A stretch of 55,347 nucleotides of DNA. Source: an uncultured Clostridia bacterium. GTDB lineage: Bacteria; Bacillota; Clostridia; Christensenellales; Aristaeellaceae. A program made the position numbers and the translations under genes. The stretch lies in assembly GCA_946411525.1 (NCBI GenBank), contig CAMKEI010000009.1:1-55347 (forward strand), in the 5' to 3' direction. This document shows, piece by piece, positions 6,945 through 24,170 of the stretch. Each line of letters opens with the position of its first letter. Positions within the stretch are counted from its first letter, which is position 1. The notes beneath the pieces are model-generated. The model ran no database searches. It was given only the letters and a program-made list of their open reading frames with translations, and was not told the origin of the DNA.

Positions 6945-6965
6945 CGGCTTTTTCGGATATGGCAA

Positions 6966-6994
6966 AGCGGTCTGCGACTGCAGACCGCTGATTT
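6966..6994 (+). terminator. Terminator after the GH43 pair
   Basis: Perfect 10-bp stem AGCGGTCTGC (6966-6975) / GCAGACCGCT (6980-6989), 4-nt loop, followed by GATTTTATTATT. Confidence 0.75.
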
Positions 6995-7007
6995 TATTAT
7001 TCCCGGA

Positions 7008-7964
7008 TTACAGATACCTGATCAGTTCGTCCCGGACGCCGTCCAGCCGGGCGTCGCTCAGCCCGAAATCCATCTGCCGGTAGGACCAGGCGCAGCGGGC
7101 AATCTGATGCTTCTCAAACACCTCGTGGATCGTCCGGTACCATTTGACCGTGTCTTCCGGCGTGGCCAGATCGATTACGCCGTATTCGCCGCAGTACAGA
7201 GCCGTGCCCCGTTCCGCGGCTGTGCTGATTGCCGACGCGAAGTTCTTCTCAAACAGTTCAGGGGTGATCCCCGCCTCCTCAAAGGCAACCCGTCGGTCGA
7301 TGTCAAACGCCGGATCCGGGATCCAGGTGGCTCCCTGGTGGGTAAAGTCCAGCGGATCGTAGCAGTGGAAGTTGTAGATCACCCGGTCGTCCGCCGGCAG
7401 ATCCAGATCCTTCACCGCATCGGGGCTGTTGTTCCAGTAGCTGCCGACCAGGATCAGGCTGCGCGGGGCCGTCTTCCGGATCCGACGGATGCATTCCGCG
7501 GCGATCCGGTTCCAGGTTCCGATTACGGACGGATCCGTCACTTCGTTCAGCAGTTCAAAGGCGATCCGGTCCGGCTCATTGAAACGTACCGCCAGAGCGT
7601 CCCACAGTTTGTAAAACCGGTCCTGATACGCCTCGTTGCCGAAGAAACCGCCCTCGTTGTGGGCTGCGTCAAAGGAATAGCCGGCTGTCTTGTGCAGGTC
7701 CAGCACCACCTTCAGGCCGCACTTTCCGGCCCAGCCGACAGCCCGGGCGATCCGGCCGAATCCTTCCTCGCTGAGAGAGCCGTCCTTCTGCTCAAGCACA
7801 TTGTAGTCCATGGGAATCCGGACATGGTCCAGGCCCCAGCCGGCGATCACGTCAAAGTCCTTCTCTTCGATAAAATGGTCCAGCCGTTCCCGGGAGTAAT
7901 CGCACTGGGAGAACCAGCCGCCCAGGTTCACGCCCCGGTAGAATCCGAAATCCTTCATTTGCAT
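7008..7964 (-). CDS. GH5-family endo-beta-glucanase/mannanase-like enzyme
   Basis: 318 residues, full-length (beta/alpha)8 barrel of the GH5 clan. Motifs seen: the N-terminal RGVNLGGWF phrase (10-18), DHVRIPMDY (46-54), acid/base Glu141 in ELLNEV, FHCYDPLDFTHQG (199-211), and nucleophile Glu260 in LYCGEYG. There is no signal peptide, so the enzyme is predicted intracellular and would cut imported beta-gluco- or manno-oligosaccharides rather than fibre. ATG at 7964 follows AGGAG by nine bases; a second ATG two codons later is possible. Convergent with the GH43 pair. Substrate within GH5 cannot be decided from sequence alone. Confidence 0.88.
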   Translation of the reverse strand: MQMKDFGFYRGVNLGGWFSQCDYSRERLDHFIEEKDFDVIAGWGLDHVRIPMDYNVLEQKDGSLSEEGFGRIARAVGWAGKCGLKVVLDLHKTAGYSFDAAHNEGGFFGNEAYQDRFYKLWDALAVRFNEPDRIAFELLNEVTDPSVIGTWNRIAAECIRRIRKTAPRSLILVGSYWNNSPDAVKDLDLPADDRVIYNFHCYDPLDFTHQGATWIPDPAFDIDRRVAFEEAGITPELFEKNFASAISTAAERGTALYCGEYGVIDLATPEDTVKWYRTIHEVFEKHQIARCAWSYRQMDFGLSDARLDGVRDELIRYL

Positions 7965-8078
7965 CGCGATACGCTCCTGTTCTGTTGAATTTTCTTTTCC
8001 TGCGGACAGGATAACACAGACCGCCCGCTTCAGTCTACCCCAGATCCTGTCCGGGTTTCCGGCGGAATGTTATTCTTT

Positions 8079-8921
8079 TCACTCCGTGTCAATCGCTTCC
8101 TTACGTTCACGGCCTTCCCGCAGCAGCCTTTTCAGGGTCTGCGCGTCTCCCTCCGCCAGGGCGTCCCGGTACTCCTGGAGTGAGCGGATCAGGCAGTCCA
8201 GTTCAAAGCCCAGATACTCCGCATTGTCCAGAAACAGCTCCGTCCACATGGCCTCGTTCAGCTTCGCCACCCGGGTCAGATCCCTGTAGCTTCCCGCGGA
8301 GAAGGACAGATGCTCCTCAGCCGTGGGGGATTTGATATAGGCGTTGGAGACCACGTGCGCCAGCTGGGAAGTAAAGGCGATCATCTCATCATGCTTCTCC
8401 GCCGTGGTAATTGTCACGGAGCGGAAGCCCGTCTCCCGAAGCATTTCGCTGAGCCGGCTGACCAGGAAAAGGTCCTCCTTCTCCCGCGGGACCAGGATCA
8501 TCGTCGCGTTCCGGAACAGGTTCCCGTCCGCGTACTTGATCCCTGAATACTGTTTCCCGGCCATCGGATGGCCGCCGACGAACGTGAATCCGTATTCCTT
8601 CGCGATCTCAAAGCAGGGTCCGCAGACCGCGCGCTTCACGCCGCACAGGTCGCAAACCACAGCGTCCTTCCGGACCAGCGGTGCCAGCCGTTTCAGTGTT
8701 TCCACCGCCGCGCCGGGATACACCGCCAGGAACAGGTAATCGCATTCCCCGGTTCTGCCGTCCGTCAGTTCCTCCTGAACGGTACCCGTCAGCAGGGCGT
8801 ATTTCTGGACGTGTTCGTCCGTATCCCTGCCGAGTATTCTGTGTCCGCAGGCACCCAGCGCCTTGCACAGGGAAGCGCCCATCAGGCCCAGGCCGATCAC
8901 GCCGACCGTCTTGCTCTCCAT
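8079..8921 (-). CDS. tyrA: Prephenate dehydrogenase
   Basis: 280 residues, the usual length of a monofunctional TyrA. It oxidatively decarboxylates prephenate to 4-hydroxyphenylpyruvate in tyrosine synthesis. The Rossmann glycine motif is at residues 9-15 (IGLGLMG); the conserved substrate-binding GGHPMAGKQYSG lies near residue 150, followed by the helical dimerisation domain with the T-S-Q-L-A-H-V signature. No ACT domain or chorismate mutase fusion is present, so feedback control would rest elsewhere. It lies 25 bp downstream of the DAHP synthase gene in the same direction and is probably co-transcribed with it. Confidence 0.93.
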   Translation of the reverse strand: MESKTVGVIGLGLMGASLCKALGACGHRILGRDTDEHVQKYALLTGTVQEELTDGRTGECDYLFLAVYPGAAVETLKRLAPLVRKDAVVCDLCGVKRAVCGPCFEIAKEYGFTFVGGHPMAGKQYSGIKYADGNLFRNATMILVPREKEDLFLVSRLSEMLRETGFRSVTITTAEKHDEMIAFTSQLAHVVSNAYIKSPTAEEHLSFSAGSYRDLTRVAKLNEAMWTELFLDNAEYLGFELDCLIRSLQEYRDALAEGDAQTLKRLLREGRERKEAIDTE

Positions 8922-8946
8922 GCCTCTTCTTCCTCCGAAGTCCGCG

Positions 8947-9951
8947 TCATACCACCGCCGAGCGGACCTTCCTCACCGCTTCGGCCACGTCGTCAAACTG
9001 TTCCGGCGTCAGGCTCTGCGGTCCGTCGCACAGTGCGTGGGCAGGATCGTTGTGCACCTCGATCATCAGGCCGTCCGCACCGCAGGCGGCGGCAGCCAGC
9101 GCCATGGGTTTGACGTAGCGCGCTGCGCCGGTCGCGTGGCTGGGGTCCACCACCACCGGCAGGTGGCTGAGCTCATGCAGCACTGCCACGGCGGAAAGGT
9201 CCAGCGTATTCCGGGTATAGGTCTCAAAGGTGCGCACGCCGCGCTCGCACAGGATGATCTGCTCGTTGCCGCCGGCCATGACGTACTCGGCGCTCATCAG
9301 CAGTTCCTTGATGTTGTTGGCCAGGCCGCGCTTAAGCAGCACCGGCTTGCTGATCCGGCCCAGCTCCTTGAGCAGCTCGAAATTCTGCATGTTCCGGGCG
9401 CCCACCTGGATTACGTCTACGTCCTCGAACAGGGGCAGGTGGCCGATATCCATGATCTCCGTAATAATCGGCATCCCGGTGCGCTTCTTCACTTCAAGCA
9501 GGATCCGGATGCCCTCGCCGTGCAGCCCCTGGAAATCATATGGGGAGGTTCTCGGCTTGAACGCGCCGCCTCGGAGCATGCCCGCACCGCTGGCCTTGAC
9601 CGCCCGGGCAATCGTCTCCACCTGCTCCTCCGACTCCACCGAGCAGGGCCCGGCAATCAGCTGGAAATGGCCGGCGCCGAAAGCAACCTGGTCCGTCACC
9701 TGCACGACGGTGTCGTCCGGATGGAACTTCCGGTTCGCCTTTTTGAAAGGTTCCGAAATCCGGGTCACGCTCTGGACAATATCCAGGCCGCTGATCAGGT
9801 CCGTATCGATCCGGGTCGTATCGCCCACCAGGCCGACCACAGTCTGGTATTCCCCGACGGAGATATGTGTCCGCACGCCGTAGCTTTCCAGCCAGGCGAT
9901 CAGCCGGTCCTGCTCCTCTTTCCGGATATCCTTTTTCAGCGCGATAATCAT
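8947..9951 (-). CDS. aroF: 3-deoxy-7-phosphoheptulonate (DAHP) synthase, type I beta
   Basis: 334 residues. First committed step of the shikimate pathway: phosphoenolpyruvate plus erythrose 4-phosphate. Residues 1-70 form the small ferredoxin-like regulatory domain typical of the Thermotoga/Bacillus-type enzyme; the barrel follows. Active-site phrases: LIAGPCSVES (98-107), GGAFKPRTSPYDFQG, KRG(L) and VVDPSHATG near the C-terminus, which are all conserved in KDO8P/DAHP synthases of this subclass. The N-terminal domain is where tyrosine or other end products bind in characterised members, so feedback control is likely. Start ATG 9951 follows GGGAGG. It heads a two-gene operon with tyrA, under a near-consensus promoter. 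Confidence 0.93.
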   Translation of the reverse strand: MIIALKKDIRKEEQDRLIAWLESYGVRTHISVGEYQTVVGLVGDTTRIDTDLISGLDIVQSVTRISEPFKKANRKFHPDDTVVQVTDQVAFGAGHFQLIAGPCSVESEEQVETIARAVKASGAGMLRGGAFKPRTSPYDFQGLHGEGIRILLEVKKRTGMPIITEIMDIGHLPLFEDVDVIQVGARNMQNFELLKELGRISKPVLLKRGLANNIKELLMSAEYVMAGGNEQIILCERGVRTFETYTRNTLDLSAVAVLHELSHLPVVVDPSHATGAARYVKPMALAAAACGADGLMIEVHNDPAHALCDGPQSLTPEQFDDVAEAVRKVRSAVV

Positions 9952-9991
9952 ACGGGTCGTCCTCCCTCAAACTTCTTCATTCAGCCGCCGT

Positions 9992-10021
9992 ATTGTATCA
10001 CCTGCCGTTCCGGTCTGACAA
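9992..10021 (-). promoter_or_regulatory. Promoter of the aroF-tyrA operon
   Basis: TTGTCA (10016-10021), 18-bp gap, TACAAT (9992-9997) on the reverse strand, 41 bp before the start codon. No attenuator or T-box features are visible in the short leader. Confidence 0.65.
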
Positions 10022-10108
10022 GGACTCTTGTCCCGGAGAAGGGAAAAACCTTTCCCTCCGTGCAGAAGAAAAACAATGTCTGCTCTTTTGTCCGGTGTAT
10101 TCAGACAG

Positions 10109-10148
10109 AAAAAGCGGACTGTTCCCGCCGTGCGGGCAGTCCGCTTTT
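10109..10148 (-). terminator. Terminator after the adaptor gene
   Basis: AAAAGCGGACTG pairs with CAGTCCGCTTTT (10109-10121 / 10137-10148), with an inner CCCG/CGGG helix; followed by T-runs in both directions, so it can work on either strand. Confidence 0.75.
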
Positions 10149-10187
10149 CCTGCTGTCCCGTCATCCCGCTTCACGGGATCCGGAACC

Positions 10188-11339
10188 TTATTCTGCCGGT
10201 TCCTCAGCTTCTGCCGGTTCGGCCTCTTCCGGTTCGGTCACTTCGGATTCGGCCTCTGCTTCCGCCGGCTGGCCTTCCGTATTCACGACCACCGCCATTC
10301 CGAAGAACACGCTCCCGTCGGGCGTAAAATCGATGATGACCTTGTACTTGACCTCTTCCGTTTCCTCGCTTTCCGATTCCTCGGGAAGCTCGGTGATGTA
10401 CCGGACCGTTCCTTCGTAGGACTTGCTTTCGTCCGCTTCCAGCTCGATGCTCACCTTGTCGCCGGCCTTCAGGGATTTCCGTTCGTCCGCGCTGATGGCA
10501 GCTTCGATCCGCATGCCGCTGATCGGCGCGATCTGGGCCACAACGTCGCCCTGGGTGACGGTGGCGCCCGCCTCCGCGGTCACAGACGTCACGACGCCTT
10601 CCTCTGTGGCCGTCACATCCGTTCCGGGCATCTCATATCCGTCAAAGGTCCCGTTGAGCGTCTCCATCAGCAGATCGCCCCGTTTGACCTCATCACCGTC
10701 CTGCACCGCCACGCTGGCCACCGCGCCGGTGGCTGTCACCGCCGTGGGGCTGACCCGGGCGATCGTACCGCGGCCCAGCCGGGATTTGTCAGAGTATGCG
10801 ACGTCCCGGTAGATCGCGACGGAATCGCCGATGATGAAGCTGCCTTCCGATACCAGCACGGTATAGCTGGAACCGTCAATGCCCGTGATAATGCCGACGC
10901 CCCGTCGGCTGGAGTCGGTACGGCACACGACGTACACCCGCTCGCCGGTATGGACGAACTTGTTCTCAACCGAGGCATAGGCGTTGGAAATGCTGGAATT
11001 GACGGAATACAGCGTCTTTCCTTCAATATACATATCCGCCCCGTACCGCTCCGTCGCCTTCTCGGCGTCGTCCCCGGCCGTCACGAAGACGCCTGTAACG
11101 GTACCGTCCTCGGAAGCGTAAACCTTCTCCGTCCGGTAGCTGAAGAGCGTATCCCCGGCCGCCACATGCATGCCGGTTTCCACCGAGACGCTTTCCACCG
11201 TACCGCCGATCGGCGCGTACACCGGGATCGTCACACCCGCTTCCACCGTTCCGTCCAGGGTCAGGGTTTCCGCATGGGCGGCTCCCGCAGCCATCATCAC
11301 CGCAAACAGGATTACCGCAATTCGTTTCATCGCCTTCAT
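10188..11339 (-). CDS. HlyD/RND-type adaptor (membrane fusion-like) protein, secreted
   Basis: 383 residues. Residues 1-23 form a signal peptide (MKRIAVILFAVMMAAGAAHA). The body has repeated beta-rich hairpins with lipoyl/barrel-sandwich phrases: GTVESVSVETGMHVAAGDTLF near residue 50, and EGVVTSVTAEAGATVTQGDVVA near 220, as in MacA/HlyD adaptors but without a long alpha-hairpin. A C-terminal tail after ~355 is Ala/Glu/Pro-rich. It sits about 120 bp downstream of the MacB-like permease and in the same direction, so it is likely a second adaptor or a regulator of that exporter. The RBS GGAGG precedes ATG 11339. Role as an exporter adaptor is inference from fold and context. Confidence 0.75.
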   Translation of the reverse strand: MKAMKRIAVILFAVMMAAGAAHAETLTLDGTVEAGVTIPVYAPIGGTVESVSVETGMHVAAGDTLFSYRTEKVYASEDGTVTGVFVTAGDDAEKATERYGADMYIEGKTLYSVNSSISNAYASVENKFVHTGERVYVVCRTDSSRRGVGIITGIDGSSYTVLVSEGSFIIGDSVAIYRDVAYSDKSRLGRGTIARVSPTAVTATGAVASVAVQDGDEVKRGDLLMETLNGTFDGYEMPGTDVTATEEGVVTSVTAEAGATVTQGDVVAQIAPISGMRIEAAISADERKSLKAGDKVSIELEADESKSYEGTVRYITELPEESESEETEEVKYKVIIDFTPDGSVFFGMAVVVNTEGQPAEAEAESEVTEPEEAEPAEAEEPAE

Positions 11340-11415
11340 TTTTGTCTTCCTCCTTATATCAATGATATTCTATGTTTTCTGACTAAACGTCCGGGATTAT
11401 GTATTTTACCGGCAG

Positions 11416-11461
11416 CATGTGCCCGAAGGGTCCAGGGGGCGACCGGAAAGCCCCCGGGTTA
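11416..11461. repeat. Palindromic dispersed repeat, short copy
   Basis: Imperfect palindrome: CCAGGGGGC, short loop, GCCCCCGGG, preceded by GCCCGAAGGG. The same element with a 33-bp insertion is at 26084-26155. This copy abuts the stop codon of the MacB-like permease gene and could act as its 3'-end structure. Confidence 0.6.
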
Positions 11462-12670
11462 CACCGCGCGCAGCGCGTCGATGGGATTCAGCTTGCTGGC
11501 CTTTCTCGCCGGCGCCCAGCCGAAGATGATTCCAACTGCCGCGGAGAAGCCCACGCCCAGGATCACCGCCCCGATGTTCAGCACGAAGCCGGTACCCAGC
11601 AGCCGGCACAGCCCGAAGGAAAGCGCCAGTCCGAATACGACGCCCAGCAGGCCGCCGATCATGGACAGCAGGAAGCTCTCCAGCAGGAACTGCATCTGGA
11701 TCTGCCCGGGCACGGCGCCCAGCGCCTTTTTCAGGCCGATCTCAGCCGTCCGTTCCGTCACGGTCGTCAGCATCATGTTCATGATGCCGATACCGCCCAC
11801 CAGCAGTGCGATGGAAGCGATGCCCGCTAGAAGCGAACTGAGCATGGTGGTCATCGTGTTCATCGTTTCCTCGATGCTCTCCATTGAGGAAACCGTGAAG
11901 CAGTCCTCCTCAAAGTCGAACAGCACGTCCATGGCGTCCTCGATCTCCTCCTGCGCCGCGGAGGAATCCGCGCCTGCCTTCAGGTAGACGGTGAAGGAGT
12001 TGATGTCGGTGGAGTTGTTCACCTTCATGGCCGTGGTATAGGGAATCAGCACAGCCGGCGATCCGCTGAAGATGGAGGCGACGCCGCCTCCGCTGTCCTC
12101 CTCGTACCGCCCGACGATGGTGAAGGGCAGTCCGGAGACGTACAGGGTCTCGCCGATGGGATTGATGCCCAGGAAGAACTCGTCCACGATCTCCTGGCTG
12201 ATGACACACACATAGCTGCTGTTGTCGTCGTCAATGAAATTCAGCGCCCGTCCCTGGATGATCATGTCCTCGTTCATGGTGAAATAATAGGCGTTTTTCC
12301 CGGATACGGAGATCCGCGACTGCACATCCCGTCCGTAGGAAACCCGTCCGTTCAGGCTGACGCTCGGCACCACGCCGTCCACGTTCTCCAGGGCCGTAAT
12401 CACTTCCAGGTCTTCCGGCGTCACACCGCTTTTCAGGTCGCTGCCGGTGACGCTCACCGTCAGGGTGCCTACGCCCATGCTTGAAAAGGAGGACGAGATG
12501 GTTCCGGACACACCGGATACCGTGGAGATCAGGGTGATGACCGCCATGACGCCGATCATGATACCCAGCAGCGTCAGGAAGGATCTGACCTTGTTGTTCC
12601 GGATATTGTCCAGCGCCATGGCCGTGCTTTCCCGGATCATGATCAGTTTTTTCCGGATCCCGTCAAGCAT
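11459..12670 (-). CDS. MacB-like ABC transporter permease (FtsX family)
   Basis: 403 residues. One transmembrane helix near residues 22-43 (SFLTLLGIMIGVMAVITLI), a large extracellular MacB-type periplasmic/core domain (~50-270), then three C-terminal helices of the FtsX domain from ~275 with the GGIGIMNMMLTTVTERTAEIG signature. In monoderm bacteria such permeases export peptides, antimicrobial compounds or lipoproteins together with a cognate ATPase and adaptor. It overlaps the ATPase gene by 8 bp and follows it; the adaptor gene is first in the operon. The substrate is not predictable. The 3' end touches a palindromic repeat. Confidence 0.9.
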   Translation of the reverse strand: MLDGIRKKLIMIRESTAMALDNIRNNKVRSFLTLLGIMIGVMAVITLISTVSGVSGTISSSFSSMGVGTLTVSVTGSDLKSGVTPEDLEVITALENVDGVVPSVSLNGRVSYGRDVQSRISVSGKNAYYFTMNEDMIIQGRALNFIDDDNSSYVCVISQEIVDEFFLGINPIGETLYVSGLPFTIVGRYEEDSGGGVASIFSGSPAVLIPYTTAMKVNNSTDINSFTVYLKAGADSSAAQEEIEDAMDVLFDFEEDCFTVSSMESIEETMNTMTTMLSSLLAGIASIALLVGGIGIMNMMLTTVTERTAEIGLKKALGAVPGQIQMQFLLESFLLSMIGGLLGVVFGLALSFGLCRLLGTGFVLNIGAVILGVGFSAAVGIIFGWAPARKASKLNPIDALRAV

Positions 12671-13361
12671 TCCGGATCACCTCCCCGTCACTCAGTTCAC
12701 CGTCTATAATGTGAACAACCCTTCTCGCGTTGGAGGCAATCTTCATGTCATGGGTAATCATGATCACCGTGCGTTTTTCCTCGTTCAGTTCCCGGAACAG
12801 CTGCATGATCTGGGCGCCGGTCTTCTGGTCCAGCGCGCCGGTGGGCTCGTCTGCCAGCAGGATGGAGGGATTCCCCACCATCGCCCGGGCAATGGCCACA
12901 CGCTGCTGCTGTCCGCCGGACAGCTGGCTGGGCAGATGGTCCATCCGGTCCTTCAGCCCGACCCGCTCAAGCATCGCCTCCGCCCGTTCCCGGCGCTCCT
13001 TCGGACGGATCCCGGTGTAGATCAGGGGCAGCTCCACGTTCTTCAGTGCCGTCAGCCGGGGCAGCAGCTGGGAATTCTGAAAAATGAAACCGATCTCCCG
13101 GTTCCTCAGTTCCGCCAGTTCCTGCTCGTCCAGGTCCTCCACTTCCCGTCCCCGAAGGGTATACTCGCCGGAAGTGGGCGTATCCAGGCAGCCGATGATG
13201 TTCATCAGGGTGGTTTTCCCGCTGCCGGACGGTCCCAGCACGGAAAGGTATTCCCCTTCCTCCAGGGTCAGGGAAACCTTCTTCAGCGCGTGGACGTTCT
13301 CCCCTTCCAGTGGATAGATTTTGTCAATCTCCCGCATCCGGAAGAATACTTCGTCTGCCAT
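12663..13361 (-). CDS. ABC transporter ATP-binding protein, MacB/LolD class
   Basis: 232 residues, single nucleotide-binding domain. Walker [10 protein letters not shown] (~42-50), Q-loop [10 protein letters not shown], signature [14 protein letters not shown] (~143-156), Walker [13 protein letters not shown] (~165-176) and H-switch TH near 200. The closing [22 protein letters not shown] is typical of the LolD/MacB class. It powers the adjacent FtsX-type permease. Two bases after the adaptor gene and overlapping the permease gene, hence translationally coupled. RBS GGGGGA lies in the end of the adaptor gene. Confidence 0.94.
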
Positions 13362-13363
13362 CG

Positions 13364-14497
13364 TCAGTTCCCCCGTGATCCGCCGCCCGGAGTACTGTTC
13401 CCGCCTCCGCTGCTGCCGCCGGAACTGCCGCCGCCAGGGAACCCGCCGGGCATGTTGCCCATATCGGGCATATTGTTCCCGTTCTGACTGTTCCGGTTGC
13501 GATTCCAGTTGCTCCGGTTCACCTGCCGGTTTGTAAACAGCCCGGAGAGCAATGCAGCCAGGCCGGTCTCCTCCTCTTCCTTCTCTGCGACCTTATACAC
13601 GGTCTCACCAGCTGTAATGCCCTCTTTGATCTCCACATAATTGCCGTTGCTCACGCCGACCGTTACAGGAACCATCTCCATTTCGCCGTCTTCTTTTTCC
13701 TTAAAGACGTAGGCGGTGTTGTCCCGCGCCGTGCTCAGGCCTTCCATTTTCAGCACCGTCACGTTCTGCGCCTCTTCCAGCGGCACGGTGACCGTCGCCT
13801 GCATGCCCGGCCAGATGTTTTCCGTGGAGGAGGTGTCCACTTTCACCGTGGTCGTGTAATAAGCTACATTGTTGCCGCTGTAGGACACATGATCGATCTT
13901 GTCGATCACGGAATCAAAGGTCGCCCCCGCCGAGGAAACTGTCACGCGGCAGTTCTGCCCTTCCGCAACCTGGGCAATATTGCTTTCGCCCACGCGGACC
14001 GAAACCACCATATGGTCGAAATCCGCCACAGTCAGCAGGGTCGTTTCCGCCTTGACCTCGTCGCCCTTCGCCACGTCGATGGAACTGACCGTTCCGTCAA
14101 ACTCGGCTTCGATCGTCTCGCTGCCTGAAAGCCGCATCAGTTTGTCGCCTTCCTTGACCTGATCGCCTTCAGCCACATAGATCTCCTTGATCTTGCAGTC
14201 AGAAGCCGCGGTGTAGGTCGCGCTGTTAATCAGCTGCATGCTGCCGGTAAAGGACAGGGAGTTGGAAATGCTGCCTGTGGTCGCCGTATAGGGATCATAG
14301 GTAATCTTGTATTCCGACATCAGCCTGCTGTACACAGACCAGCCCGCTAAGCCGACCACCAGGAGGATAATCAGCGTCCAGATCAGCCGCTTCACGATTC
14401 TCCGCTTCCGGCTTTTCTTCTTCTTTTTGCCTTCCCGTTTTTCAGCCGCTTTGGCCGTTTCCGTTTCCAGGGCTGTATTCTCAAGCTTCTCTGCCAT
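13364..14497 (-). CDS. MacA/HlyD-like adaptor protein of the ABC exporter
   Basis: 377 residues. A Lys/Arg-rich cytoplasmic N-terminus (KKKKSRKRRIVKR) is followed by a transmembrane anchor at ~38-58. Then come barrel-sandwich halves (SDCKIKEIYVAEGDQVKEGDKLM near 110 and an FDGTVSSIDVAKGDEVKAET unit), a beta-barrel, and a final membrane-proximal domain with ITAGETVYKVAEKEEEETG. The last ~55 residues are Asn/Gly/Ser-rich (NRNRNSQNGNN, GGGSSGGSSGGG) and look disordered. First gene of the adaptor-ATPase-permease operon. Family known to stimulate MacB-type ATPases; in monoderms it is thought to span the wall region. An inverted repeat lies upstream at 14556-14575. Confidence 0.87.
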   Translation of the reverse strand: MAEKLENTALETETAKAAEKREGKKKKKSRKRRIVKRLIWTLIILLVVGLAGWSVYSRLMSEYKITYDPYTATTGSISNSLSFTGSMQLINSATYTAASDCKIKEIYVAEGDQVKEGDKLMRLSGSETIEAEFDGTVSSIDVAKGDEVKAETTLLTVADFDHMVVSVRVGESNIAQVAEGQNCRVTVSSAGATFDSVIDKIDHVSYSGNNVAYYTTTVKVDTSSTENIWPGMQATVTVPLEEAQNVTVLKMEGLSTARDNTAYVFKEKEDGEMEMVPVTVGVSNGNYVEIKEGITAGETVYKVAEKEEEETGLAALLSGLFTNRQVNRSNWNRNRNSQNGNNMPDMGNMPGGFPGGGSSGGSSGGGNSTPGGGSRGN

Positions 14498-14555
14498 TTT
14501 TACCAGTCATCCTTTCCTTGAATGCCTCTTCGGCGACACCCATCCTACAGGGCAA

Positions 14556-14575
14556 ACTTAAAATGAAGCTTAAGT
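14556..14575. promoter_or_regulatory. Inverted repeat upstream of the adaptor/exporter operon
   Basis: ACTTAA (14556-14561) and TTAAGT (14570-14575) separated by 8 bp, 59 bp before the adaptor start codon. It could be an operator; no regulator is adjacent and the call rests on symmetry only. Confidence 0.35.
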
Positions 14576-14586
14576 AAACAAAAAAT

Positions 14587-14612
14587 TCCCGGCTCCTTTT
14601 CGGAAGCCGGGA
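14587..14612 (-). terminator. Terminator of gyrA
   Basis: TCCCGGCT / AGCCGGGA 8-bp stem with 10-nt loop, followed on the reverse strand by ATTTTTTG, 20 bp after the gyrA stop codon. Confidence 0.75.
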
Positions 14613-14632
14613 TATATCGGATTTACTTCAGT

Positions 14633-17182
14633 TTACAGGTCTGTTTCCGGGACAGGCCCTTCCGTTTCCGGAGCGGACGCTTCCCCGCCGGCCTCCGCGG
14701 GCGTTTCCGGCGCTTCCGCGGTTTCAGTCGGCCGGATATCTTCCGGAGCTTCTTCCTCTTCCTTTTCCGCCCTGCAGACGCCGACCACGGTGCTGCCTTC
14801 GGCCAGCCGCATGATCCGCACGCCCTGGGTCGCACGGCCGCACAGGCGGACGTCCGCGGCTCTGGCCCGGATGATGGTGCCGTCGTCAGTGATCAGCAGG
14901 ATATCCTCATCCTCATGCACGAACATCAGTGCGGCCAGGTCGCCGGTCTTTTCGGTCAGCTGCATGGCCTTGATGCCCATGCCGCCGCGGCCCTGTTCAC
15001 GGTATTCGTCCGGATCGGTGCGCTTGCCGTAGCCGCCCGTGGTAATGGCCAGTACGGTCGTGTCCGGCTCCACCGCGGCGATGTCGATCACTTCGTCTCC
15101 CTCCGCGATCCGCATGGAACGGACGCCGATGGAGTTGCGGCCCACGTTGCGTACATGGCGCTCATTGAAACGGATGCACTTGCCCTTGCGGGTGGATACG
15201 AGCATCTCGTCGTCCCCGTTGCTCAGCCGCACGCCGATCAGCTCGTCGTCCTCCCGCAGCGCGATGGCGATCAGGCCGTTCTTGCGCAGGTTCCGGAACT
15301 CGTTCAGCGCGGTCTTCTTGATCATGCCCCTGCGGGTCGCCATGACCAGGTTGTGCTCCTCTTCCGTTTCCTTCGGCATGGGCAGCATGGTGGAGACCTT
15401 CTCCCCGCCGGCGATATGCAGCAGGTTGATGATCGCCGTACCGCGGGCCTGGCGCCCGGCTTCGGGAATCTGGTAGCACTTCAGGCTGTAGACCCGGCCC
15501 AGGTTCGTGAAGAACATGATCTCCTGGTGCGTGCTGACCACGAACATCTGGGTGGTATAGTCGGTGTCCTTCACGTTCATGCCGCTTACGCCGCGGCCGC
15601 CGCGGTGCTGCGCGCGGTAAACGGAGGATGCGACCCGCTTCACATAGCCGTCGTGCGTCAGCGTAACCACCATATTCTCTTCCTGGATCAGGTCCTCGAT
15701 ATCGATGTCGTCCTCGGCGATGGTCAGCTCGCTGCGCCGTTCATCCCCGAATTTGTCCCGGATCTCGCTGATCTCGGTCTTGATCACGTCCATCAGGAGA
15801 TGCTCATCTCCCAGGATTGAGGTCAGCCGCTCGATGGTTTTCTCCAGCTCCTGATATTCCTCCTGGAGCTTCTCGCGCTCCAGGCCGGTCAGGCGGGCCA
15901 GGCGCATGTCCAGGATCGCCTGGGCCTGTTTCTCGGAAAACTCAAAGCGGAGCATCAGCGCTTCCTTGGCGGTGTTGGTATCCTTGCTGGCCCGGATGAT
16001 CGCCACGATCTCGTCGATATGATCCAGCGCCTTCAGGAGGCCTTCCACGATATGCGCCCGCGCCTGGGCTTTGTTCAGCTCGAACTTTGTCCGGCGGGTC
16101 ACGACGTCCTTCTGGTGCTCCAAGTAGTAGAAGATCAGCTCCCGCAGGTTCAGCACCCGGGGCTTTCCGTCCACCAGCGCCAGCATATTGGCGCCGAAAT
16201 TCTCCTGCATGGGTGTATGCTTGTACAGCATGTTCAGCACGACCTGAGGCTGGACGTCCCGCTTCAGTTCGATCACGATGCGCATGCCCTGCCGGTCGTT
16301 GGATTCGTCCCGGATATCGCTGATCCCTTCGATCTTCTTTTCATGCACCAGGTCGGCGATCTTCTTGACCAGGACCGATTTGTTGACCTGATAGGGGATC
16401 TCCGTCACGATAATGCGGCTGCGGTTGCCCCCCATCTCTTCGACGTTGGTCTTCGCCCTGACGGTAATCCGCCCGTGGCCGGTATGATACGCCGCCCGGA
16501 TGCCGCTGCGGCCCATGATCAGGCCGCCGGTCGGGAAATCGGGACCCTTGATATGCTGCATGAGGTCGTCCACCGTACATTCCGGATTGTCGATCATGCA
16601 GATTACGCCGTTGATCACCTCGGTCAGGTTGTGCGGCGGAATGTTGGTCGCCATACCGACGGCAATGCCGCTGGAACCGTTCACCAGCAGGTTCGGGAAC
16701 CGCGCCGGCAGTACGGAAGGCTGCTGCATGGTTTCGTCGAAGTTGGGATAGAAATCCACCGTATCCTTATCGATCCCGTCCAGCAGATGCATTGTCAGCT
16801 TCTGCAGCCTGGCTTCCGTATACCGCATCGCAGCGGCGCCGTCGCCGTCCACGGAGCCAAAGTTACCCTGGCCCTCGATCAGCGGGTAGCGGATGTTGAA
16901 GGGCTGGGCCAGGCGGACCATGGCGTCGTACACGGAAGAGTCGCCGTGGGGGTGGAATTTACCCAGAACGTCGCCGACCACGCGGGCACTCTTGCGCGTC
17001 GGTTTGTCCGGCGTCATGCCCAGTTCCTCGGACATGTCGTAAAGAATCCGCCGGTGTACCGGTTTCAGACCGTCCCGCACGTCCGGCAGGGCCCGGTCCA
17101 CGATGACCGACATCGCATAGGCGATGAAGCTCTTTTTCATTTCCTGTTCCAGATTAACCGGGATCAGCTTATCCTGAATCAT
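14633..17182 (-). CDS. gyrA: DNA gyrase subunit A
   Basis: 849 residues. Cleaves and rejoins DNA during negative supercoiling. The catalytic tyrosine is Tyr121 (AAMRYTE). The quinolone-resistance positions are Ser82 and Asp86 in [10 protein letters not shown], the residues normally found in susceptible enzymes. A GyrA-box-like QHRGGRG near residue 526 and the six-bladed C-terminal domain distinguish it from ParC. The final ~45 residues after the propeller are acidic and Pro/Glu/Ala-rich ([11 protein letters not shown] onward), an unusual but disordered tail of the kind known to tune supercoiling in some gyrases. It lies 78 bp downstream of gyrB in the same direction; GAGGAA precedes ATG 17182. 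Confidence 0.96.
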
Positions 17183-17236
17183 CTTCTCTGTTCCTCAAAA
17201 ACTCTCTGTAATTCCATCCTTGCTGTAGCAGTGTCC

Positions 17237-17257
17237 ATAATTATGAATTATGAATTG
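17237..17257. repeat. GAATTNT heptamer repeat cluster (gyrB-gyrA spacer)
   Basis: Three tandem 7-bp units (ATAATTA TGAATTA TGAATTG), ending three bases before the gyrB stop codon triplet. One of nine such clusters in the window. Confidence 0.7.
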
Positions 17258-17260
17258 CTG

Positions 17261-19345
<2,085 letters not shown>

Positions 19346-19347
19346 TT

Positions 19348-19353
19348 ATTATA
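19348..19353 (-). promoter_or_regulatory. Extended -10 promoter for gyrB
   Basis: TATAAT preceded by TGG (extended -10, TGNTATAAT form) on the reverse strand; the -35 region is weak (TTTCTT). Leader about 115 nt. Confidence 0.5.
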
Positions 19354-19429
19354 CCACTTTTTCGCCCAAAAAGAAAGCTTTTTCGCAAATTTTTCTTTCC
19401 TATATATATAGACGCCCTGTTTTTTCCGG

Positions 19430-19458: not shown

Positions 19459-19520
19459 GATTTCACAGAAAACAGCAGCGAAAATAAAGCACGGAACATC
19501 TTGTGAAACGGAGAACGGAT

Positions 19521-22500
19521 ATGAAAGAATATCAGTACTGCGCGTTTATCAGCTACCGTCACCAGAGCCCTGACCAGGAGATTGCCAAAGCGCTGCACGC
19601 GGCAATCGAAACCTACGGCATCCCGGCGTCGGTCAGAAAGACTGTCGGAAAGAAAAAAATGGGCAGGGTTTTCCGCGACCAGGAGGAGCTGCCCCTTTCC
19701 AGCGACCTCGGTGCAGATATCGAAGCAGCCCTGGACAGCAGCGAATGGTTTATCGCCGTCTGTTCCCCGCGCTACCTGGAAAGCCGCTGGTGCCTCCGGG
19801 AACTGGAATACTTTATTGAGCGCAAGGGCCGGGACCATGTGCTGACAGTGCTCGCGGAAGGCGAACCCGCTGAATCCTTCCCGGACCTGATCCGGTTCTG
19901 TACCGACGAGTCCGGCAGGAAGAAAGAGACGGAGCCGCTGGCCGCGGACGTCCGGTCAGACAGCCTGAACGGCAATCTTAAAAAGCTGCGTGGGGAAAAA
20001 CTGCGGGTGATCGCTCCGATGCTGGGGCTGTCCTTTGACGATCTGAAGCGCCGCGCCAGGCAGCGGAAACTCCGGATCATCTCCGTCATATCGGCGATCG
20101 CTTTTGTGGTTGCGACCGGCACAGCCTCGTTTCTGGTTATCAACCACGAAAGGCAGGAGGAACTGAAACGGGAAGCGGAACGACAGGCTCAGATCGCGCA
20201 GGAGCAGACAAAACTGGCTGAGGAAAAAGCCCGCGTTGCCGACGAACAGACCAAACTGGCCAAAAACAACGCGAAGCTGGCGGAAGATCAGAAGAAGATC
20301 GCGGAGGACAATAAGAAACTGGCCGACGAACAGACGAAAATCGCGGAGGAGCAGACAAAGATCGCGGAAGAAAAAGCCCGCGTCGCAGACGAGCAGACCA
20401 GGCTGGCGGAGGAAAACAAAAAGCTGGCGGAGGAACAGACCAAACTGGCGGAGGACAACGCGAAACTGGCGGAGGAGCAGACCAAACTGGCGGAGGACAA
20501 CGCGAAGCTGGCGGAGGACCAGAAAAAGATCGCGGAAGAGCAGACCAGGATTGCCGAGGAACAGACCAGAATCGCCGAAGACAACAAAAAACTGGCGGAA
20601 GAAAAACAGAAGCTGGCGGAAGAGCAGCATCAGCTGGCGGTTTCCAACGAAATCGGCACCCTGCTGGAAAAGGCTGACGCCTACCGGGAGGAGAACGAGC
20701 GGATCCCCGGCGCGGAAACGCTGCTGGAGGCACTCGCGCTGAGCGATGAAACAGCAGGCGTCCGGCGGGATGAGATTCTGCAGCTGCTTCGGAAAGAACT
20801 GTATTTCATGCCCTTCACCGCCGTTTCCGGCTTTGAGAATGAAAACGTGCGGCTGACGGATATGGTTGTTTCCCCGGACGGTACGCAGGCCATCGGCGTG
20901 GAAAACATGAACTCCGTGGCGGTCATCGATTTCGCCGAAGGCAGGGTGGTCCGGAAAGTCTCCTCCGGCGATACGATGGTCGCCGGTCTGCAGTATTCCC
21001 CGGACGGTTCCCGCTTCCTGGGAAACTATTGTTCCCATGTGACCGTATGGGATGCGAAAAACGGGGCTGAGGTCTTCACATATACGGGCAAAAACCGTAC
21101 TGGCAGCGATATTGCCAACGCGTTCTTCTGGAAAGACGCCGATACGCTCCTGATCCAGGACTGGGACCGGTTCCTGTTCATTTCGCTGAAGGACGGATCG
21201 GAACGGCTGTTCTATACGCTCGGGGAGCATCAGGAATGGTATTCGGTGGAGGACAACCTGTACACAATGATCAGGAACATGCCGATGGACCAGATCTTTA
21301 CGGATTTCGCGGACGGATATCTTGCCGTCCATGTGGCGCTGGCCGGCGACTGGTCTTCCATCATGATCACCGGAAAAGCAGGAACGACCGGAACCCTGGT
21401 GATCGATGAAAACGGCGGTCTCCTCTGTCCCCTGCGGCAGATGCCGGGTTCGGGGTTTGAAAACATTGCCCTTTCTCCTGACGGAAAGACGGCGTTCTGG
21501 CTTTCATGGTTCGGCGTTTACTCAGCCTGGGATGTGCAGACAGGAAACCTGCTGTATATAGAAGCCGTTGACATGGCAGACCATGGAGCTCCGAGCGATA
21601 TTGTTTTTTCTCCGGATTCCGTCTGCGTCACCTTCGCGGCGGGCAGCCAGCTGTATGTCCTGGACGCGAGAACCGGTGCCGTCTATATGCAGGCCGCCCT
21701 GGAAAACACCAGCTACACTCCCCGTATTGCTTACAGTCCGGACGGGGATTACCTGATCCTGACCAATCAGTCCCTGTTCATCATTGACGCGTACTCGTTC
21801 GATCTGCTGATGCTTGAGAAAGCGGAGGAATTCACCAACTTCACCGCCGCGCTCCCGCTGAAGAACGTATTCTTTACCACCCGGAACAACGGAACCGTAA
21901 CCATATATGCCAAGCCTGAAATTGCCAGCATCCGGCCGCTGACTGAACTGCCCTCTCCGCTGCGGGAACGCTATGACCCGGATGTTGCGCCGGAAGGCGC
22001 GTCTGAACTGAACGGCGGGCATGAGGTTGTCCACGGAGCCTGGGAGCAGATCGACGGCATACCCGAAGAATGGAAGAGCACGCGGAAAAAGTATTCCCGG
22101 GACGGCAGCCGGGCCGCCGTCATCTATCCGGATGGAGCCATCGAACTGTACGATACTTTCGGAAACGGGGAACCGCGGAAAGTGCTCGGTCAGCTGTTTA
22201 TGCCGGTTTCCGCTTTCGGCATGGTGAACGACCGGCTGGTAGCTTCGGATACCACAGGCCGTCTCCTGTTCTATGACCTGGCGAACGACAGGGTGATCCG
22301 TGTCCAGAACAGTAACCTGGCATACACCGCCTTCGCCTTCAGCGAATCAGGGGATCTGATGATGGCCCTGAAATCCGAAGAGGAGTATGCCATTGACGTC
22401 TACCGGACGGATAACGCCGAGAAGCTCTTTACCATCACCTACGGCGCCGCCTTCTCTGATTTCGGTTTTACGGAGGACGGAAAATACGCGGTGGGCGTTT

Positions 22501-22628
22501 CGGCAAATCCCACCAACAAAACAGCACTGAACGGTCAGACCATCTATATGGCCGCCGATCTGTACCTGGATGAAAACAGCCTAATCAGTCAGGCCCGGGC
22601 ACTGACATCCCTGTACGGAATGGAATGA
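19521..22628 (+). CDS. TIR / transmembrane / heptad coiled-coil / beta-propeller protein
   Basis: 1035 residues from ATG 19521 (GGAG seven bases upstream; a GTG at 19503 is the alternative). Residues ~1-130 form a bacterial TIR domain: AFISYRHQS, RDQEELPLSSDLGADIEAAL, WFIAVCSPRYLESRWCLREL, with Glu94 in the WCLREL helix at the place of the catalytic NADase glutamate of enzymatic TIRs. A single transmembrane helix spans ~184-206. Residues ~210-385 are an uninterrupted coiled coil of seven-residue KLAEEQT/KIAEDNK units. The remainder (~400-1035) contains repeated SPDG and WD-like strands (VVSPDGTQAI, QYSPDGSRFL, ALSPDGKTAF, VFSPDSVCV), a WD40/TolB-like propeller. TIR and coiled coil would be separated by the membrane. 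Monocistronic with a strong terminator. Function unknown: signalling, NAD-depleting defence or stress sensing are options. Confidence 0.85.
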   Translation: MKEYQYCAFISYRHQSPDQEIAKALHAAIETYGIPASVRKTVGKKKMGRVFRDQEELPLSSDLGADIEAALDSSEWFIAVCSPRYLESRWCLRELEYFIERKGRDHVLTVLAEGEPAESFPDLIRFCTDESGRKKETEPLAADVRSDSLNGNLKKLRGEKLRVIAPMLGLSFDDLKRRARQRKLRIISVISAIAFVVATGTASFLVINHERQEELKREAERQAQIAQEQTKLAEEKARVADEQTKLAKNNAKLAEDQKKIAEDNKKLADEQTKIAEEQTKIAEEKARVADEQTRLAEENKKLAEEQTKLAEDNAKLAEEQTKLAEDNAKLAEDQKKIAEEQTRIAEEQTRIAEDNKKLAEEKQKLAEEQHQLAVSNEIGTLLEKADAYREENERIPGAETLLEALALSDETAGVRRDEILQLLRKELYFMPFTAVSGFENENVRLTDMVVSPDGTQAIGVENMNSVAVIDFAEGRVVRKVSSGDTMVAGLQYSPDGSRFLGNYCSHVTVWDAKNGAEVFTYTGKNRTGSDIANAFFWKDADTLLIQDWDRFLFISLKDGSERLFYTLGEHQEWYSVEDNLYTMIRNMPMDQIFTDFADGYLAVHVALAGDWSSIMITGKAGTTGTLVIDENGGLLCPLRQMPGSGFENIALSPDGKTAFWLSWFGVYSAWDVQTGNLLYIEAVDMADHGAPSDIVFSPDSVCVTFAAGSQLYVLDARTGAVYMQAALENTSYTPRIAYSPDGDYLILTNQSLFIIDAYSFDLLMLEKAEEFTNFTAALPLKNVFFTTRNNGTVTIYAKPEIASIRPLTELPSPLRERYDPDVAPEGASELNGGHEVVHGAWEQIDGIPEEWKSTRKKYSRDGSRAAVIYPDGAIELYDTFGNGEPRKVLGQLFMPVSAFGMVNDRLVASDTTGRLLFYDLANDRVIRVQNSNLAYTAFAFSESGDLMMALKSEEEYAIDVYRTDNAEKLFTITYGAAFSDFGFTEDGKYAVGVSANPTNKTALNGQTIYMAADLYLDENSLISQARALTSLYGME
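20170..20640 (+). repeat. 21-bp tandem coding repeats (heptad coiled coil)
   Basis: About 22 imperfect copies of a 21-bp unit encoding K-[LI]-A-E-[ED]-[QN]-[TAK]. Neighbouring copies between 20440 and 20520 are nearly identical at DNA level, so copy number may vary between strains. Confidence 0.8.
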
Positions 22629-22654: not shown

Positions 22655-22688
22655 GGGGCGCCGGATGATTCCGGCGCCCCGTTTTTTT
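22655..22688 (+). terminator. Strong terminator after the TIR gene
   Basis: Perfect 10-bp stem GGGGCGCCGG (22655-22664) / CCGGCGCCCC (22671-22680), 6-nt loop, then GTTTTTTT. Confidence 0.85.
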
Positions 22689-22694
22689 GCGGTA

Positions 22695-23816
22695 TCAGAT
22701 CTTCTTTTGCTCAAAGCCGAAGTATTGTTTCGCGTTCCGGTAGCTGATGCCTGTCACGATTCCCTTCAGCGCCGCTTCGTCTTCCGGATAGAATCCTTCC
22801 TCCACCCATTCGCCGAGGATCCGGCACAGGATGCGGCGGAAATACTCATGCCGCGGATAGCTCAGGAAACTCCAGCTGTCCGTCAGCATGCCCACAAAGC
22901 CCGCCAGGTAGCCCAGGGCCGCCAGGCTCTTCATCTGGGCGCACATGCCGTCAAAATGATCGTTGAACCACCAGGCGGAACCATGCTGGATCCGTCCTAC
23001 GGCCGCGTCATTCTGGAAGCAGCCGATGATCGTGCCGATCGCCGCGTTGTCCACGGGGTTCAGGCTGTACAGAATCGTCTTCGGCAGGCTGCCCGCGTCC
23101 TCCAGGGCACCGAGAAAAGCCGCTGTCTGGGACGCCGGGGTATAGTTGTCCGCGCAGTCGAAACCCGTATCCGGACCGATTGCCCGGAACATGACCGGAT
23201 TGTTGTCCCGGCGGACGCCGTAGTGCAGCTGCATAACCCAGTCCCGCTCCGCGTACTCAGCAGCCATGGCAATCAGGAAAGCATACTTGAACTTTGCTTC
23301 CTCTTCGGCGGAAGGCAGAACGCCGTCCATCCGTTTCCGGAAGATCGCCTCGATCTCATCCGCTTCCGCCGGCGCGTACATCACATAGCCCAGTCCGTGA
23401 TCGCTCAGTGGGCAGCCGTGTGCCGCGAAATAATCCAGCCGCCTGCGCAGCGCCGCTTTCAGATCCGCGAAGGAGGCGATCTCCGTCCCGGCCGCTGTTT
23501 CCAGCTGCCTGATATATGCCGGCCAGTTTTCTTTTTCCAGGTACATGGCTTTGTCCGGGCGCCATGCCGGCAGCACCGTTACCGGAAAGGATTTGTCCGA
23601 CGCCAGTTTTTCATGCCATTCCAGCGTGTCCGCCGGATCGTCCGTGGTGCAGATCGTTTCCACGTTGCTCATCCGGATCAGGCCCCGGGCGGAGTAGCCC
23701 TCGCTCCGCAGTTTCGCATTGGCGAGCTCCCATACTTCCCCGGCGGTCTCCCGGTTCAGGATCCCGTCGTAACCAAAGTAACGCCGCAGTTCCAGATGGC
23801 TCCAGTGATGCAGCGG
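22695..23816 (-). pseudogene. uxaC: Glucuronate (uronate) isomerase, N-terminally truncated
   Basis: Encodes about 373 C-terminal residues of uronate isomerase, which normally has about 465. Homology starts abruptly at PLHHWSHLELRRYFGYDG and continues through RMSNVETICTTDDPADTLEWH to the natural end (FGFEQKKI). The first ~95 residues, including the metal-binding HxH near the N-terminus of this amidohydrolase-fold enzyme, are absent, so the product should be inactive. The 5' end joins the start of uxaB at an 11-bp sequence (23806-23816) shared by both parents, out of frame relative to uxaB. The first in-frame ATG is at 23672. It may be a true deletion or an assembly join; the evidence for loss of function is direct if the sequence is right. 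Confidence 0.8.
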
Positions 23817-24115
23817 CTGACTGAAGAGATGACGCGTCTGTCGTCCACCCGGACGCCGTTCTCGCTTCCCCGGAGATACAGGGTGTAGAGGCCTTCCTGT
23901 TTGTTGATCTGTTCCGTCAGCCCGTGGGGAATAGGCTGAACCAGCGCCGCTTTCCCGTTAAATCCGGCCTTCTCGTTCGCAATATCAATAAAGTCATCCA
24001 CAAAAGCGCGGAGGAAATTGCCCTCGCCGAACTGCATGACTTTTTCCGGCGCCTTCTCCAGGATATAGCCTGTGTAACCCGACTTTTTCAGTACCGCGTA
24101 ATTCAGCTGATCCAT
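23756..24115 (-). pseudogene. uxaB: Tagaturonate reductase (altronate oxidoreductase), 5' fragment
   Basis: From ATG 24115 (GGAG eight bases upstream) the frame gives about 103 residues of the mannitol-dehydrogenase/UxaB family: the N-terminal KVMQFGEGNFLRAFVDDFID, KAALVQPIPHG, LRGSENG and VISSVSRCI phrases are all typical. After SRCI (23806-23816) the sequence becomes uxaC in another frame and translation stops at 23756. Normal UxaB is ~480-500 residues, so about 80% is missing. UxaB and UxaC act in the same galacturonate/glucuronate pathway and are commonly neighbours, so one deletion of roughly 1.5 kb between adjacent genes explains the structure. The promoter upstream is intact. Confidence 0.8.
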
Positions 24116-24170
24116 TTGCATATCTCCGATGTTTTTTACGGTTTGCCATACTGTGAAAATACACACCAAA

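Follow-up and report, generated by a model that had tools for sequence, protein, structure and literature searches.

A family of Clostridia TIR proteins with a membrane helix, a stalk that varies in whole heptads and a propeller-like region

The window, i.e., the whole stretch of 55,347 nucleotides that was analysed, is contig 9 of a 2.45-Mb assembly that is 85% complete, and it carries the one copy in this genome of a gene for a protein in which a TIR domain is followed by a transmembrane (TM) helix, a heptad stalk and a propeller-like region. The gene belongs to a family, new here, that is found across the bacterial class. In this family the length of the stalk changes in whole heptads, so that the number of residues between an invariant position before the TM helix and another after the stalk can be divided by seven in 55 of the 57 genes measured. 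This suggests a feature more general than the initial annotation of the gene saw, namely a heptad-phased TIR receptor family within bacterial TIR signalling.

Results

The Gene and Its Surroundings

The features of the gene are collected in Table 1. The order of domains described initially (TIR, TM helix, heptads, propeller-type region) is borne out by the open reading frame, Pfam, hydropathy and repeats. A longer frame from a GTG at 19503 is less likely, because GGAG precedes the ATG at 19521. The stem past the stop codon has the most pairs among the 13 terminator-like sites found in the region, where 4.9 are expected.

Table 1. Positions in the window of the TIR-TM-stalk-propeller gene and its parts
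Feature	Position	Strand	Basis
TIR-TM-stalk-propeller gene	19521..22628	+	1035 aa ORF
GGAG, probable ribosome-binding site for ATG at 19521	19510..19513	+	sequence
TIR domain core, residues 9-116	19545..19868	+	Pfam TIR_2
Codon of E94, catalytic-type glutamate in W-C-x-x-E	19800..19802	+	computed from residue number
Single TM helix, residues about 189-207, K/R-rich on TIR side	20085..20141	+	
Heptad stalk, residues 208-375, 24 heptads, 21-bp-based repeats	20142..20645	+	
Helical cap after stalk, residues 376-430, second anchor of phase measurement	20646..20810	+	
Beta-propeller-like sensor region, residues about 431-1031	20811..22613	+	sub-threshold matches, low-confidence model
Intrinsic terminator-like stem, 11 pairs (10 GC), T-run on + side	22655..22680	.	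just past stop

The gene is a single gene upstream of this terminator-like stem, between the divergent gyrB and the remnants of a uronate operon, where a piece of uxaC and then a uxaB-like piece follow downstream on the opposite strand. The stretch from 22695 to 24121 (minus strand) holds the C-terminal part of UxaC (glucuronate isomerase; residues 147-469 of a 469-residue relative) and the N-terminal part of a tagaturonate-reductase-like protein (residues 1-103 of 495), both partial. Longer uxaC and uxaB-like genes adjoin gyrB in G015 and G019, and the partial genes in the window look like the result of a deletion within the uronate operon. On the other side, a 1130-residue open frame (16019-19411, plus strand) runs antisense to gyrA and gyrB and is most likely the shadow of their coding strand. 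That no partner gene is adjacent, as had been noted, is correct for the window, where gyrB and the uxaC and uxaB pieces flank the gene; in the genus, an HD/RyR-like gene co-occurs with it in trans.

When 34 gyrB loci of relatives were fetched, none of the 32 with at least one readable upstream gene (32/32) had a relative of the window protein beside gyrB. The upstream flank of gyrB holds many different gene sets among these 32 relatives (L108-L141), as if it were a frequent site of gain and loss. From this wide variation, together with the occurrence of relatives of the gene at many unrelated places, it follows that the gene is accessory.

Matches at an E value of 0.001 were obtained in 20 of 61 relatives and in 21 of 45 genomes of the genus (own genome counted; a few of the matches are coil-only), and a profile of the TIR and juxtamembrane parts at 1e-15 found the family in 17 of 396 genomes at the level of the order and in 37 of 391 at that of the class, again with the own genome counted. 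Its presence is patchy and scattered among genomes. Two scans of viral contigs gave no relative of the gene. The single distant match of a scan of genome contigs, a Planctomycetaceae locus with 25% identity, was not used.

The TIR Domain

The TIR domain of the window protein scores 52.1 bits against Pfam TIR_2 (cut-off 28) and 34.7 bits against Pfam TIR (cut-off 21.3), which places it in the TIR superfamily. The glutamate E94 lies within W90-C91-x-x-E94, aligned with the same motif of the flax L6 TIR, and F51-R52-D53, E56-L57-P58, W90 and E94 are invariant in 15 of 15 selected family members (alignment A3); the glutamate that the initial annotation put at the catalytic position is thereby confirmed in place. 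A conserved glutamate is required by all TIR enzymes examined (PMC10022894), and self-association is needed for NAD+ cleavage by SARM1 and by plant TIR enzymes (PMC8635717). With its catalytic-type glutamate, the window TIR is a candidate NADase. PADLOC gave a weak match of the TIR region to the candidate family PDC-S66 (1.2e-6) and an E value of 0.0036 for ThsB. A model of the TIR domain from the single sequence has a pLDDT of 43; in a Foldseek search with this poor model TIR domains rank first at E values of 0.009 or worse, and the result, with no match at 0.001 or better, is not counted as evidence.

Membrane Helix and Topology

The TM helix has a mean hydropathy of 2.29. In the window protein the 15 residues before it contain seven K/R and one D/E, and the opposite side contains four and five. 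K/R are more numerous before the helix than after it in 32 of 32 TM-bearing family members, counted over 33 rows of which one truncated row was dropped. By the positive-inside rule, which underlies the reading of charge bias as topology, the TIR domain is probably inside and the sensor region outside, so that the two would lie on opposite sides of the membrane, as had been proposed before. Cysteine content did not discriminate as a test of topology, with 1.34% in secreted-like and 1.50% in cytosolic-like proteins.

The Stalk and the Heptad Rule

In the window protein the stalk between TM helix and cap has 167 residues, or 23.9 heptads. L, I or V occupies one heptad site in 22 of 25 cases and Q or N the site four residues further on in 21 of 26, and therefore every second core position is polar. 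Coiled coils in which alternate core layers are Q/N are weak, and this counts against the reading of the stalk as the paired rod of a receptor. The heptad pattern suggests that the stalk may oligomerise. Beneath the stalk, the DNA contains tandem arrays with periods of 21, 42, 63, 84 and 147 bp.

To follow the phase of the stalk through the family, the residues were counted from the invariant D173, before the TM helix, to the invariant N376, after the stalk. In the 13 rows of alignment A1 this distance is 49 (five times), 56, 84 (twice), 91, 133, 182, 203 (the window protein) and 80, which is a multiple of seven in 12 of 13. For comparison, the same count was made for six variable intervals that lie nearer the C terminus of these 13 proteins; there the commonest remainder modulo seven takes just 3 to 7 of 13. 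Further genes, measured with two small profiles, gave 17 rows. L051 was dropped as spurious, its second anchor preceding the first, and L170 because it is the same gene as L146; the distance is a multiple of seven in all of the remaining 15, four of them from the genus and eleven from six other genera. Among class-wide loci the count is 28 of 29. The rule had been noticed before the later counts were made, when L036, L043 and L147 of the 15 had already been seen; for the other 12 and the class-wide 29 together, i.e., the genes first measured once the rule had been noticed, it is obeyed by 40 of 41.

When the second anchor scores 10 or more, all of the further genes (11/11) and of the class-wide loci (23/23) are in phase; scores under 10 belong to L160, L163, L165 and L171 among the former and to L202, L204, L205, L207, L210 and L215 among the latter. 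The downstream anchor was also replaced by a directly aligned position that lies 28 residues beyond it. Phase is then kept in 41 of 42 rows, and in 34 of the 35 that score 10 or more; the 42 rows include the duplicate pair L146/L170 and leave out 18 ORFs without a usable second anchor. The exceptions are L034 (80) and L210 (45, with a second-anchor score of 0.7), while L206 breaks the rule with the other anchor.

The multiples observed are 49, 56, 63, 70, 77, 84, 91, 98, 112, 119, 126, 133, 182, 203, 217 and 259. Because many genes share the length 49, what counts for the rule is that these sixteen different lengths stand against two or three exceptions, and the number of independent events is far smaller than 57, with L195/L198 and L213/L214 being near-copies. 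In one pair of close orthologues, identical at 198 of 201 positions before the stalk and 196 of 211 after it, the stalks differ by exactly six heptads; one of the two genes is cut by a contig end. Since only the stalk varies, the counts demonstrate phase between the TM side and the cap; a continuous coil that includes the TM helix does not follow from them alone.

The coiled-coil stalk of the initial annotation thus holds up, with its phase maintained through the family. The figure of about 24 heptads given there is right for the window gene and is not fixed: the nearest relative has about 7, and others have from about 2 to about 32, so that lengths differ by 0 to 30 heptads. Change of the stalk in whole heptads is what would be expected of a heptad-phased transmembrane receptor, and exchangeable sensors on a phase-sensitive coiled-coil rod, by analogy with sensor histidine kinases, would fit these data.

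The Probable Sensor Region

A propeller had been claimed for the C-terminal region, and here the support is divided. There are propeller-like matches, all at superfamily level (THOC3-type, 6.5e-15), but their bits are below the cut-offs (55 against a model cut-off of 305 for the THOC3-type match; WD40, PQQ_2 and PD40 likewise under theirs), and the single-sequence model, with helices first and many short strands after, has a pLDDT of only 41. Pfam gave no LRR match in the window protein. Among 16 propeller-type members, mean identity is 58% in the TIR parts and 28% in the sensor parts, and the TIR part is the more similar in 119 of 120 pairs.

Candidate Partner Genes

In the 45 genomes of the genus, an HD/RyR-like gene is present in 9 of the 10 that have a gene closely related to that of the window, versus 2 of the 35 without. 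The line that defines a close relative (best E value between 6.7e-72 and 9.2e-49) was set after the gap had been seen; the numbers leave out weak, partial matches to HD in G026 and G067, and G066 has its copy in two pieces. A prediction made in advance for eight genomes was right in seven, the miss being G066. On a gyrB tree of 35 genomes the corresponding numbers are 8 of 9 versus 1 of 26 (Fisher 3.3e-6), and the tree contains five independent pairs, of which on average 4.3 (3.7 with the traits swapped) go the same way and none the opposite way (sign test p 0.06-0.25), so that the tree-corrected support is slight.

Outside the genus, a close HD/RyR homologue is present in one, and a homologue of 28-35% identity in four, of the 13 genomes that carry a family TIR, versus 0 of the 15 that do not; G045 has both genes and G042 a distant homologue only. 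The HD/RyR-like gene was therefore rejected as an obligate partner, because most family-bearing genomes outside the genus are without a close homologue, although some association remains. The label itself refers to RyR matches in 7 of 10 members, with a best E value of 6.5e-4, and to HD matches in 3 of 10, where the best is 7.6e-4; neither reaches its cut-off in the member shown.

In the own genome the HD/RyR-like gene lies on contig 25. It adjoins a membrane gene labelled SLOG-SLATT-like (DUF4231) in six genomes of the genus (L042 14264-17949, L146 9515-13188, L066, L067, L068 and L069). In G064 the HD/RyR-like, SLOG-SLATT-like and TIR-TM-propeller genes are consecutive on the same strand, and in G020 the three types lie within 9 kb. 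The SLOG-SLATT label is weak: DUF4231, a SLATT domain, matches in 6 of 6 members tested (one above the cut-off), and a SLOG profile in 3 of 6, all below. The gene occurs in 7 of the 45 genus genomes, all of which have the HD/RyR-like gene, and it was not found in the window's own genome. SLATT proteins are predicted to be membrane effectors regulated by derivatives of ADP-ribose (PMC9503650). PADLOC at 0.01 gave no match for the HD/RyR-like and DUF4231 genes scanned (two of each), and the pair is possibly an unnamed module. The co-occurrence is used here as a lead for a conflict role, and as nothing beyond that.

Other TIR-TM Groups

Contig 25 of the own genome also carries a second, different TIR gene, which adjoins the HD/RyR-like gene. 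It belongs to a further TIR-TM group, in which LRRs come after Pro-Thr-rich linkers (L065 11624-13084, the own genome; L032 5605-8403; L070 4529-5914), TIR and LRR are both above the Pfam cut-off and which resembles an animal Toll-like receptor turned round. Adjoining this group in L070 are two very long TM-LRR proteins (5933-10018 and 10050-16625; 1361 and 2191 residues), with a TIR-like start below the Pfam cut-off. TIR-TM genes also occur as adjacent pairs (L041 10535-15467, L044 8593-13538, L045 8068-13115, L046 7331-12252, L049 9535-12479), and in 5 of 5 pairs one partner is without the usual TIR start motif and without a Pfam TIR match. A shorter TIR-TM group of about 470-530 residues (L015, L016, L017, L018, L019, L028) has repeats instead of a propeller; in the two members scanned, L015 and L018, these were confirmed as Sel1 repeats, and both pass the ThsB_TIR cut-off.

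Discussion

What has been computed is the order of domains, the charge bias, the conserved glutamate, the whole-heptad changes, the faster divergence of the sensor and the patchy presence. From these we infer a topology, an oligomer, an enzyme activity, the direction in which the signal passes and a part played in conflict or defence, which combine to a single-pass receptor. The TIR enzyme domain would reside in the cytosol, and the propeller, outside the membrane, would bind a ligand. Two or more chains would pair along the heptad rod, which would act as a phase-sensitive lever between TM helix and sensor. Binding to the sensor would alter the rod by rotation, tilt or assembly, this would bring the TIR domains into their active arrangement, and the active TIRs would cleave NAD+, with depletion or a cyclic ADP-ribose-type signal as the result. 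The step from ligand-bound propeller over paired rod to TIR arrangement is suggested because heptad linkers of histidine kinases and self-association of TIR domains are both known. We consider this receptor reading about equally likely to be right or wrong.

The main rival concerns the rule itself. If the coil is a spacer whose length is gained and lost through slippage of 21-bp units, whole-heptad changes arise without selection, the rule becomes a mutational by-product, and the TIR protein could act simply by clustering or be a constitutive scaffold. Slippage alone could keep the phase, and the tandem arrays in the window gene, together with the close orthologues six whole heptads apart, indicate that it could explain part of the rule. 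However, distant members with short linkers (56, 63, 70, 77 and 84) and no obvious long array obey the rule too, and it spans linker types that differ in heptad sequence, so that we regard slippage as the full explanation as fairly improbable.

The other two alternatives leave the rule as it is and differ in what the protein does. Propeller sensors of bacterial conflict proteins are often cytosolic. The sensor might likewise be in the cytosol, in which case the hydrophobic helix would anchor the protein peripherally or as a re-entrant segment and the propeller would monitor a target inside the cell, for instance a phage protein; the protein begins directly with the TIR domain, with no N-terminal signal peptide. 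Pro-Thr-rich linkers are typical of extracytoplasmic parts, and such a linker, followed by LRRs, stands past the helix of the own-genome TIR-TM protein; this pattern and the K/R excess in 32 of 32 members make a cytosolic sensor quite unlikely, even though bacterial conflict proteins include propellers among their superstructure or scaffold parts (PMC7159879). Equally improbable, in our judgement, is a housekeeping sensor of envelope or cell wall, in which the TIR would be merely a protein-docking domain with no NADase activity. Some TIR domains are scaffolds (PMC8635717), and the window gene sits among housekeeping genes, but the catalytic-type glutamate is kept in 15 of 15 selected members, the presence of the family is patchy, and the genes around some relatives include other TIR, HD/RyR-like and SLOG-SLATT-like ones.

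The receptor reading can be extended to the whole class. The family would then consist of surface receptors equivalent in function to Toll-like receptors, in which the outside propeller reads a ligand (a phage tail, a rival's product, wall damage) and the heptad-locked rod signals to a cytosolic NADase TIR. At a rise of 0.1485 nm per residue the rod would be free to evolve between about 2 and 33 nm, always by whole heptads, and its length would set how far up each paralogue senses, within the cell wall or beyond it. This extension is tentative, and we find it somewhat improbable. The bacterial TIR immune systems known to us all act in the cytosol. If the extension is true, a widespread, membrane-spanning TIR receptor joins NAD+-based bacterial immunity to surface sensing, as Toll-like receptors do in animals. 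A stalk that is free in length and kept in phase is also a useful case for asking how a change crosses a membrane, and the heptad rule implies that stalk changes of 7 residues should be tolerated and those of 3 or 4 should not. Full-text searches of a literature collection without most subscription papers showed no description of a bacterial TIR-TM-coil-propeller protein and none of heptad phasing in TIR proteins.

Among known systems, Thoeris (ThsB TIR with ThsA SLOG effector) shares a TIR with a catalytic-type glutamate, and the genus relatives L146 and L042 adjoin a SLOG-SLATT-like gene. Unlike ThsB, the window gene is without an adjacent ThsA, its product is a single-pass membrane protein with a stalk and a propeller-like region, and its score against Pfam ThsB_TIR is 13.9 bits, below the cut-off of 21.2, which L015 and L018 pass. 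The vWA-MoxR (VMAP-type) conflict systems have propellers, TPRs, membrane-spanning segments and TIR domains in their components (PMC7159879), whereas the window protein is one self-contained protein without an NTPase or vWA part.

With animal Toll-like receptors the window protein has in common the probably cytosolic TIR, the one TM helix and the proposed outside sensor. An extracellular LRR before the TM helix and a C-terminal TIR define these receptors, whereas the order here is TIR-TM-stalk-propeller, with an N-terminal TIR, a propeller-like region in place of LRRs, a long heptad stalk and an enzyme-type glutamate; the likeness does not imply common descent of the architecture as a whole. 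A parallel to the heptad rule is in sensor histidine kinases (YF1, BvgS family), where linkers change by whole heptads and the output depends on the register (PMC6798134, PMC5829827). Red-light kinases also have heptad-dependent linkers, yet their natural linkers use several registers (PMC11164954). Unlike these kinases, the family described here has a TIR as output, and its stalk, of up to about 32 heptads, is probably on the sensor side of the TM helix.
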